Shown in pieces: positions 13,523 to 30,517 of a stretch of 64,000 bases of DNA (positions within the stretch are counted from its first letter, which is position 1; each line of letters opens with the position of its first letter). Below the pieces are notes generated by a model. The model was not told the DNA's origin, did no database searches, and worked only from the letters and a program-made list of their open reading frames with translations. Source of the DNA: Flavobacterium ammonificans. GTDB taxonomy: Bacteria > Bacteroidota > Bacteroidia > Flavobacteriales > Flavobacteriaceae. A program made the position numbers and the translations under genes. The DNA lies in NCBI RefSeq assembly GCF_020885975.1, contig NZ_AP025183.1, positions 1,860,001 to 1,924,000 on the forward strand, given 5' to 3'.

Positions 13523-13540
13523 TTATCTCCAAAAATTTTA

Positions 13541-13866
13541 AAAAAAGCAGACCTATAAGCCGGATTCTGTCTCCGTAAACGGAGCCTTATCATTTATCTA
13601 GATCTTACATTACTGTAAGACTCAAGCTATCTACCCTTCAACAACGGACGAGAAGCCCTTAAATGCTGATATACTTGATATTTCACCGCATAGAGTTTAC
13701 CTGGTTTCACTACAGCATTACCTGTACATACTTTCTGTTGCACTTGTCCTAATTCATCTCGAAAAATCGAGACAAACCGACGGGTGTTACCCGCTATGCT
13801 TCTCTGTGGTGTCCGGACTTTCCTCCCTCCTAATGAATCAGGACGGCGATAAGGCGGTCTGCGGGG
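13541..13866 (-). ncRNA. rnpB: RNase P RNA, bacterial type A
   Basis: The catalytic RNA that trims tRNA 5' leaders. On the minus strand the 5' part contains GCAGACCGCC and GGAGGGAGGAAAGTCCGGAC (13836-13813 region), the conserved P4-proximal segment GAGGAAAGTCCGGACACC. The 3' part reads ACAGAATCCGGCTTATAGGTCTGC. P1 forms between GCAGACC (13862-13856) and GGTCTGC (13553-13547). A T run (13546-13541) acts as the terminator tail. The size, about 320 bases, is normal. The open frame at 13627-13869 inside it is a shadow. Confidence 0.93.
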
Positions 13867-14042: not shown

Positions 14043-15796
14043 ATGGAACAATTTATAGTATCGGCTCGTAAATACCGTCCACAAACATTTAAAGATGTTG
14101 TGGGTCAGAAAGCCATTACCAATACTTTGTTGAATGCTATTGAAAACAATCACTTGGCCTCTGCCCTTTTATTTACTGGACCTCGTGGTGTAGGTAAAAC
14201 TACTTGTGCACGTATTTTGGCACGAAAAATCAATCAACCTGGATACGATGATCCAAATGAAGATTTTGCTTTCAATGTATTTGAATTGGATGCAGCTTCT
14301 AATAACTCAGTAGATGATATTCGAAACTTGATTGATCAAGTGCGTATACCACCTCAAACCGGACAGTACAAAGTGTATATCATTGATGAGGTGCATATGT
14401 TATCTTCTGCCGCTTTTAATGCGTTTTTAAAAACTTTAGAAGAGCCGCCAAAACACGCCATCTTTATTTTGGCTACGACCGAAAAACACAAAATCATTCC
14501 AACGATTTTATCACGTTGTCAAATATTTGATTTCAAAAGAATTACCGTTAAAGATGCTAAAGAACATTTAGCAGAGGTGGCTACAAGTCAAGGAGTTCAA
14601 TTTGAAGACGACGCTTTGCATATCATTGCTCAAAAGGCAGATGGTGCTATGCGTGACGCTTTGTCTATTTTTGACCGAGTAGTTTCTTTTTGCGGGACTA
14701 ATTTGACTCGTCAAGCGGTAACAGAGAATTTGAATGTTTTAGATTACGAAACGTATATCAATGTGACTGAATTGATTTTGGAAAACAAAATTCCAGAATT
14801 ATTAGTTTCTTTTAACGAAATTCTTGCCAAAGGATTTGATGCACATCATTTTGTTTCTGGATTGGCTTCTCATTTCAGAGACTTATTGGTTTCTAAAAAT
14901 CCTGCTACTTTATCTTTGTTAGAAGTTGGAGAACAAGCACAGCAGATGTATGGTGTTCAAGCACAAAAATGCGACACCAATTTCTTGTTGAAAGGAATTG
15001 AAATTGCTAATGATTGTGATTTGAAATACAAAGTCAGTCAAAATCAAAGATTACTTGTTGAACTTTGCTTAATGCAATTAGCCTCCATCACTTTCGATGG
15101 AGAAAAAAAAAAGTTGAGCAATTTATAATTCCGCCTACTTATTATAAAAATTCAGCCTATTCAATAGTTGAAGTAGTTAAAAATACTGAAACTCCAAAAG
15201 TAACTGAAGAAGTCATAGCTATTCCTTCACCAGAAAGTATAGAAGAAATTCCAAATGAAGTTGAAGAAATAGTTACAACAGTAACTGCCCCTATTATTGA
15301 AATTCCAAAACCTACTATTCCAAACGAATCAGAACCTAAAGTTTCTGCATTGTCGTTATCAAGTATTCGCGCTAAAAAAGCTTTAGAAGAAAGTTCAAAA
15401 ACGTTTGTAAAAGAATCCGTTCATTTACCCACAGAGCCATTTACTGAAACAGAAATGTTGTTACAATGGAATAAATATGCGCAACGTTTGGGAGACAAAG
15501 GCTATAAAATTATGGAGTCATTATTACTTATTAATGATCCTGTTTTGAATGGTACTCATATCACGATTGAATTACCTAACGAAGGTTCCAAATTGGATTT
15601 TGAAAGCGAAAAATTAGGATTGCTTGGATACTTAAAAGGGCATTTACACAACCACGACATTACTATAGAAGTGATTGTAAATGAAAGTTTTGAAAGTAAA
15701 CGCAGCTTTAATGACCAAGATCGTTACAACCGTTTACATCAAATCAATCCGAATATTGAATTATTAAAAACAACATTCGGATTAGATATTACTTAA
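14043..15796 (+). CDS. dnaX: DNA polymerase III subunits gamma/tau, needing a -1 frameshift for tau
   Basis: Clamp-loader ATPase of the replicase. Walker A is GPRGVGKTT (46-54), Walker B region DEVH (115-118), and sensor/arginine finger TILSRCQ (about 154-160). The four zinc-binding Cys of E. coli DnaX are missing. The zero frame ends at 15128 after 361 residues (gamma-like). The next frame (-1) continues to 15796 with a Pro/Glu/Thr linker and a C-terminal domain (TETEMLLQWNKYAQRLGDKGYKIM onward), giving a 584-residue tau-like protein. The switch is at ten A (15103-15112) ending in A AAA AAG (15107-15113), in register. The start at 14043 fits the promoter at 13994-14024. A sequencing error is the main alternative. 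Confidence 0.88.
15103..15113 (+). promoter_or_regulatory. Slippery A10-G site in dnaX
   Basis: Ten A followed by G. In the zero frame it reads GAA AAA AAA AAG, so the last seven bases form A AAA AAG, the heptamer used in E. coli dnaX. A -1 slip joins the gamma frame to the tau frame (reading on as VEQFIIPP). I see no clear hairpin in the next 40 bases, which favours polymerase slippage over ribosomal stimulation, if the site is real. Confidence 0.6.
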
Positions 15797-30380: not shown

Positions 30381-30390
30381 AATAAAAAAT

Positions 30391-30483
30391 GGCAAGCGAC
30401 CTACATCGCACCGCTCAACCGCGTACCCTTGCTATGTTCCCATCCTGGGGGATTCTGCAGGAGCTGGTCGTGTAGGACTTGCC
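30391..30483 (-). ncRNA. ffs: Signal recognition particle RNA, small bacterial type
   Basis: A 93-base RNA on the minus strand whose ends pair (GGCAAG / CTTGCC, then CCTACA / TGTAGG), forming one long hairpin. The tip holds the conserved SRP core: CCCAGGATGGGAACATAGCAAGGG (within 30461-30427), which gives the Ffh-binding symmetric and asymmetric loops (CAGG, GGAA, AGCA). It guides ribosomes making membrane proteins to the membrane. Promoter and terminator match this strand (30488-30517 and 30354-30380). A shadow frame on the plus strand (30340-30531) crosses it. Confidence 0.9.
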
Positions 30484-30487
30484 GGTG

Positions 30488-30517
30488 CAAATATACAACC
30501 TTTTTATATTTTTGCAA
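30488..30517 (-). promoter_or_regulatory. SRP RNA promoter
   Basis: On the minus strand TTG (30517-30515), a 19-base spacer and TATATTTG (30495-30488). The predicted start at about 30483 coincides with the first base of the closing stem of the RNA, strong mutual support. Confidence 0.8.

Follow-up and report, generated by a model that had tools for sequence, protein, structure and literature searches.

Results

The window, a stretch of 64,000 nucleotides from the genome of Flavobacterium ammonificans, carries a dnaX gene on the forward strand. Its zero frame (14043–15128, +) starts with the ATG at 14043, ends with the TAA at 15126–15128 and encodes a gamma-like clamp-loader ATPase of 361 residues with the C-terminal end ...GEKKKLSNL. 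As the first-pass annotation had stated, this templated stop is located five codons past a run of ten A (15103–15112, +), a putative slippage site. The −1 frame, which corresponds to one extra A, is open from before the run to the TAA at 15794–15796. It continues for 227 codons after the run, close to the 225 counted earlier, and the conserved-looking C-terminal domain noticed there was recovered as the tau-specific region (15113–15796, +), whose frame is reached with 11 or 8 A. The gamma part matches TIGR02397 (dnaX_nterm) with 385.5 bits at a cut-off of 250 and PF22608 with 49.3 bits at a cut-off of 27, so that both the N-terminal AAA+ clamp-loader domain and the lid are present. In NF011531, the NCBIfam dnaX model of 614 positions, it covers positions 1–370 and the −1 frame part covers positions 407–613 (E 8.3e-22 for the latter). 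Each part alone stays under the whole-protein cut-off of this model, and a Pfam search of the C-terminal tau part gave no match. Since the two parts cover complementary stretches of one model, they are assigned to a single dnaX gene whose reading frame changes at the joint.

Two further elements flank the run. Besides the TAA at 15126–15128 (+), which ends the templated frame with 10 A, a TGA at 15115–15117 (+) closes the third frame, that of mRNAs with 9 or 12 A, after ...EKKS or ...EKKKS. From the window sequence, the number of A in the transcript is predicted to decide the product: tau of 583 or 584 residues for 8 or 11 A, gamma of 361 or 362 residues for 10 or 13 A and gamma of 357 or 358 residues for 9 or 12 A. 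Ends in the third frame would require slippage or a +1/−2 shift. On the 5′ side an RNA hairpin is predicted at 15083–15102 (+) with a left arm at 15083–15089, a loop at 15090–15095 and a right arm at 15096–15102; the 7-bp stem with its 6-base loop ends at the first A of the run, i.e., with a spacer of 0. The earlier account had recognized the slippery site, but both the abutting hairpin and the third-frame TGA were missing from it. The heptamer A_AAA_AAG, described there as that of Escherichia coli dnaX, was indeed found in frame at 15107–15113 (+).

Just upstream of dnaX, on the opposite strand, lies an RNase P RNA class A gene (13540–13865, −). A small SRP RNA at 30386–30491 (−) was assigned to Rfam RF04183, a family named for Bacteroidales, though the host genome is Flavobacterium-like.

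The run in dnaX is the only A or T run of at least ten in the window. The genome, a single contig of 2,271,028 bases, holds 11 A10 runs, nine of which lie outside ATG-started open reading frames of at least 60 codons and one directly after a start codon; that of dnaX is the sole one deep inside a gene. At L375 of the same genome, A10 (1501–1510) stands immediately 3′ of the ATG of a frame open for about 500 codons, where slippage would shift almost the whole protein.

Conservation of the run

To compare run lengths in related genomes, as had been proposed, 294 dnaX loci were read. The genus contributed 145 of them, other genera of the family 55, the order two, the remaining class 59 and the remaining phylum 33. 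A dnaX match was obtained in all 398 genus genomes searched; among 80 chosen genomes 78 had a match. Among the best matches listed, which represent part of the 398 genomes, the open frame measured 362–424 codons in all except G393. Outside the genus, short-frame and long-frame genes were picked deliberately, so that the proportions given here are not prevalences, and all counts are inflated by related sequences, as the relatives are not independent.

A run of A9–A12 is present at the gamma/tau joint in 278 of the 294 loci (genus 145/145, family 54/55, order 2/2, rest of class 56/59, rest of phylum 21/33). In the genus the run is exactly A10 in 136 of 145 loci, and a second genome of the same species (L003) has the same run as the window. 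Because of these two findings, A10 in L003 and A9–A12 throughout the genus, we reject a sequencing error and regard the run, judged from the sequences compared, as very probably genuine. The 16 remaining loci comprise seven without any run of at least five and nine with A5–A6 only, one of which (L127) ends at a contig edge. In 80 named records, the best 80 of 589 hits, 69 have A10 with tau at one extra nucleotide, six have A10 with tau in the template frame, three have A11 with tau at one extra nucleotide and two have A9 and need +2 or −1 nucleotides.

The rest of the 278 run-bearing dnaX genes, 482,871 bases in total, contains one A9 and 36 A8, and runs of ten or more A or T are absent. In the 71 genes in which tau is encoded directly by the template, the run is unbroken despite synonymous alternatives, with a mean expected probability of 0.33 each from the genes' own codon use. 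The peptide at the run in these genes is mostly EKKN or EKKK and could be coded without a run.

Some individual loci deserve mention. In another genus of the family, L104 (G417) has a split dnaX in which the joint carries only A4 and a −1 shift would be required; this may reflect an error in the sequence, loss of the gene end or some other mechanism. On the Flavobacterium davisii chromosome (L358) the joint carries A9, and the tau frame is open for just 76 codons beyond the run. Reversed dnaX genes with A9 or A10 also occur in the phylum outside the class (L134–L145), with 43–48% identity to the gamma part of the window and no hairpin signal as a group.

Template polarity

For the 278 run-bearing genes, the number of extra nucleotides needed to reach tau is 0 in 71, +1 in 197 and +2 (or −1) in ten. 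In the genus, tau lies at one extra nucleotide in 137 of 145 loci, as in the window, which confirms the reversed polarity; what had been taken for an unusual design is the rule there. The polarity is not fixed either: 71 of the 278 genes have a run of the same type and encode tau directly. The run starts in all three codon phases and is followed by G, T or C. One genus locus (L146) has A11 followed by GTTGAGCAAT, the same flank as in its A10 relatives, so that tau is read directly from the template.

In a tree built with FastTree from 285 gamma parts, 278 of which carried a polarity label, at least 30 polarity changes were counted by parsimony, a number that hinges on the tree; 15 fall among genus and family rows and five inside the genus. 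In passages of their work on recoded genes, Antonov et al. name a shift direction that is not conserved among orthologues as a sign of transcriptional realignment (PMC3711429). Both direction and register vary among the dnaX orthologues compared here, matching this sign.

Stops in the non-tau frames

Both non-tau frames stop within six codons of the run in 261 of the 278 genes. By comparison, 17% was obtained in synonymous shuffles of the downstream codons and 16% at other positions of the same genes. Genes outside the genus show the excess as well. Both stops are present in 48 of 56 genes of the remaining class, compared to about 15 expected, and in neither of the two order loci. The third frame, which is neither the template frame nor that of the −1 shift, stops within three codons in 175 of the 197 genes that share the window's polarity. 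If mRNAs that lack one A or carry two additional ones are frequent, a conserved stop is to be expected here; with ribosomal −1 shifts alone it would serve no evident purpose.

The upstream hairpin

Hairpins of 7–8 bp are predicted in most Flavobacteriaceae genes. Predicted folds of the sequence upstream reach the run with their last paired base, leaving no gap, in 118 of 145 genus loci and 38 of 54 family loci. When the 30 nt 5′ of the run were compared with synonymous shuffles, with other places in the same genes as control, mean z values of −1.87 for the genus (145 loci; −0.09 elsewhere) and −1.77 for the family (54 loci; −0.06 elsewhere) were obtained. The signal is weak in class and order (−0.69 vs. 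−0.13 elsewhere) and missing in the rest of the phylum (−0.06 vs. −0.10). It is found in either polarity, with z of −1.87 for 137 genus genes with gamma in the template frame, −2.02 for 34 family genes with tau in the template frame and −1.12 for 16 family genes with gamma in it.

Codon choice in the stem was counted in the family genera for genes with the usual residue at the respective position. Ile is ATC in 35 of 40 (17% elsewhere), Gly is GGA in 35 of 36 (34%), Ala is GCC in 35 of 43 (27%) and Asp is GAT in all 33 (74%). This skew follows the pairing demand, which indicates that the hairpin is held by synonymous codon choice. Other stems are found at the same place in L215, L216, L222–L224, L226–L228 and L232, in L209, L210, L212–L214, L217 and L218 as well as in L240, and stems at the run occur in other families in L109 and L125. 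Eight genus loci (L229, L230, L231, L233, L234, L235, L237 and L239) have no stem at the run. As the hairpin is weak or absent in some groups and in these eight loci, it is not needed everywhere.

Covariation was evaluated with a fixed-register motif, which overlooks shifted hairpins. Over 82 distinct rows, 75% of the cells are paired compared to 67% in shuffles, and 37 double changes were counted compared to 13.2; slides of −1, −2 and −3 gave 31, 33 and 41 double changes with only 42–50% of cells paired. In an illustrative set of 40 rows, picked by hand from the 82 to include several clades, 85% are paired, with 14 double-change cells compared to 3.4 in shuffles and ten at slide −1, the best slide, and a covariation score of 0.214 compared to at most 0.123 at any slide; for two of five measures in this set, 26 and 47 of 500 shuffles attained the observed level. 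The fixed-register covariation thus lends modest support to the hairpin.

Heptamer, 3′ side and tRNA-Lys

The in-frame A_AAA_AAG, which the first-pass annotation had equated with that of E. coli dnaX, is not conserved across the group: it is present in 150 of the 197 genes of the window's polarity (absent in 47) and in 162 of the 278 overall (absent in 116). Conserved structure 3′ of the run was found neither in the 145 genus loci (z −0.02 and −0.08) nor in the 54 family loci (−0.06 and −0.05). Class and order show a slight signal in the longer 51-nt window (z −0.47, sem 0.13), and the 3′ stretch of the window gene itself folds slightly better than shuffles, with z of −1.5 to −2.0. Despite this slight fold, a downstream stem-loop of the E. 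coli kind was rejected, as genus and family are flat.

A first look at tRNA genes scored 150 of 267 candidates. With 42 of 43 candidates confirmed by ARAGORN, tRNA-Lys in the window's genome was found with the UUU anticodon only, in two genes. The tRNA-Lys argument for polymerase slippage that was given for Thermus is consequently of no help, as the UUU anticodon alone was found.

Discussion

Across the relatives compared, the run, the stops in the unwanted frames and, in Flavobacteriaceae, the hairpin are conserved, and the template polarity flips. We consider it probable, at roughly 0.8, that dnaX is a programmed transcriptional-slippage cassette that yields gamma and tau from one gene. A run about as long as the RNA–DNA hybrid, a hairpin at the RNA exit and a stop for each unwanted frame look like the parts of a polymerase-slippage device. 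On A10, RNA polymerase would realign, as the rA:dT hybrid of 9–10 bp could re-pair in shifted registers, and the RNA hairpin just behind the hybrid would favour the slip. Transcripts with differing numbers of A would then make up the mRNA pool. Those in one of the three frames (here with 11 or 8 A) would lead to tau, and those in the other two (10 A, and 9 or 12 A) would meet a stop one to five codons after the run and give gamma. With a pool that is mixed either way, the product spelled by the DNA would matter little, and the template polarity could flip in evolution with run, both stops and, in Flavobacteriaceae, the hairpin being kept. We infer the slip itself, its stimulation by the hairpin, the formation of both products and the near-neutral polarity from these conserved elements. 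The earlier proposal, that tau arises by slippage only, stands insofar as the template encodes gamma and tau needs a slip; that tau is made in this way is inferred from the sequences. In a wider form, which we favour only slightly over its opposite, a terminator-like device common to Bacteroidia, composed of a hairpin or its replacement, A10 and a stop for each non-tau frame, would set gamma:tau at transcription, and the genome spelling would be near-neutral and have been switched dozens of times.

A ribosome-based alternative, a programmed −1 frameshift at A_AAA_AAG like that of E. coli dnaX but with gamma and tau exchanged, is supported by the heptamer in the window gene and in most genes of the same polarity, the sole tRNA-Lys(UUU), a Shine–Dalgarno-like GGAG immediately 5′ of the run and the slight fold of its 3′ stretch. 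Passages of a 2016 review also take reversed dnaX as apparent ribosomal frameshifting (PMC5009743). However, nearly a quarter of the genes of this polarity lack the heptamer, the ten genes that need +2 or −1 nucleotides cannot be served by a −1 shift, the third-frame stops are conserved, and genus and family are devoid of conserved 3′ structure. The conserved hairpin sits instead on the 5′ side, abutting the run; according to parts of PMC6321510, a hairpin in this position weakened −1 frameshifting at an A6G site when assayed with a 70S system, which counts against the ribosome as well. Polymerase slippage with a nascent hairpin would fit the data better than an E. coli-type ribosomal −1 shift, because heptamer, 3′ stem-loop and a single direction are not conserved, and we judge the ribosomal reading unlikely. 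A combination, in which the ratio would mainly be determined by polymerase slippage and some −1 shifting of ribosomes at A_AAA_AAG or A_AAA_AAA would come on top, overlaps with the preferred explanation and has a somewhat better, though still minor, chance. A10-G provides both sites, with AAG in register in the 150 genes mentioned above, but a 3′ stimulator is not conserved in genus and family.

Two explanations without programmed slippage have far less to offer. Homopolymers of ten mutate, and lengths of 9–12 as well as polarity flips are seen in evolution, so phase variation might be considered, with the DNA run length varying in the population and cells switching between gamma only and tau. 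Tau is expected to be essential as part of the replisome, and a switch of this kind would sit poorly with that. A10 in 136 of 145 genus loci likewise speaks against it, and the off-frame stops and the 5′ hairpin would be superfluous, which makes phase variation very improbable. A sequencing error or a broken gene has the known proneness of homopolymers to error in its favour. Against it stand L003, which carries the run as well, A9–A12 in every genus locus read and a tau part that is open and matches the dnaX model; its probability is close to nil.

If the preferred reading of transcriptional slippage is correct, hairpin-assisted polymerase slippage would occur in a housekeeping gene, in addition to the insertion sequence for which passages of PMC5009743 describe it. 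Short dnaX annotations in Flavobacterium that are followed by a separate open reading frame may have the same cause. The question why and how two lengths of DnaX are made for the replisome is thereby turned into a natural experiment, with many genera, one cassette and repeated polarity switches. The cassette makes the requirement for gamma and the cellular gamma:tau ratio directly testable.

Comparison with known systems

Slippage of RNA polymerase on A9 was reportedly described for Thermus thermophilus dnaX by Larsen et al. in 2000, and stem-loop-mediated transcriptional slippage is said to have been described for IS630 of Roseiflexus by Penno et al. in 2015. Reversed polarity in dnaX is known since 2013: as stated in passages of their paper, Antonov et al. 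found 17 dnaX genes in which tau requires recoding, nine of them with ten A, and proposed transcriptional realignment (PMC3711429). These genes resemble that of the window in having two open reading frames, a −1 shift for tau and A10 at the joint. The passages on reversed dnaX cover −1 cases only and mention neither a hairpin at the site nor relatives with the same run and tau in the template (PMC3711429), and words beginning with Flavobacteri are absent from the main text of this paper. In the literature searched, outside of which most subscription papers lie, PMC3711429 was the only relevant result for Flavobacterium, Bacteroidetes or Bacteroidota together with dnaX frameshifting or slippage, and no mention of a hairpin next to the dnaX run turned up. 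The same holds, in the literature searched, for a run kept in both polarities across a class, third-frame stops in reversed genes and a count of polarity changes.

E. coli dnaX shares with the window the gene itself and A_AAA_AAG in register. In contrast, its template encodes tau, it is stimulated by a 5′ Shine–Dalgarno sequence and a 3′ stem-loop, and the shift has a single direction, as far as described in parts of PMC3711429 and PMC5009743. The parallel to Thermus thermophilus drawn in the first-pass annotation is apt, as passages of PMC1088944 and PMC5009743 describe a homopolymer slip that gives gamma and tau as well as stops in both non-tau frames soon after the run. T. thermophilus differs in that its template encodes tau, its run is A9 and two tRNA-Lys species occur; a hairpin is not described in these passages (PMC1088944, PMC5009743).

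For the IS630 transposase of Roseiflexus, a stem-loop of the nascent RNA stimulates transcriptional slippage according to passages of PMC5009743. Its motif is T5C5, one C is lost and the gene belongs to a mobile element, whereas the window carries A10 in a core replication gene. Both have in common, judged from the same passages, an inverted repeat directly 5′ of the slippage motif and a slip that is needed for the long product (PMC5009743).
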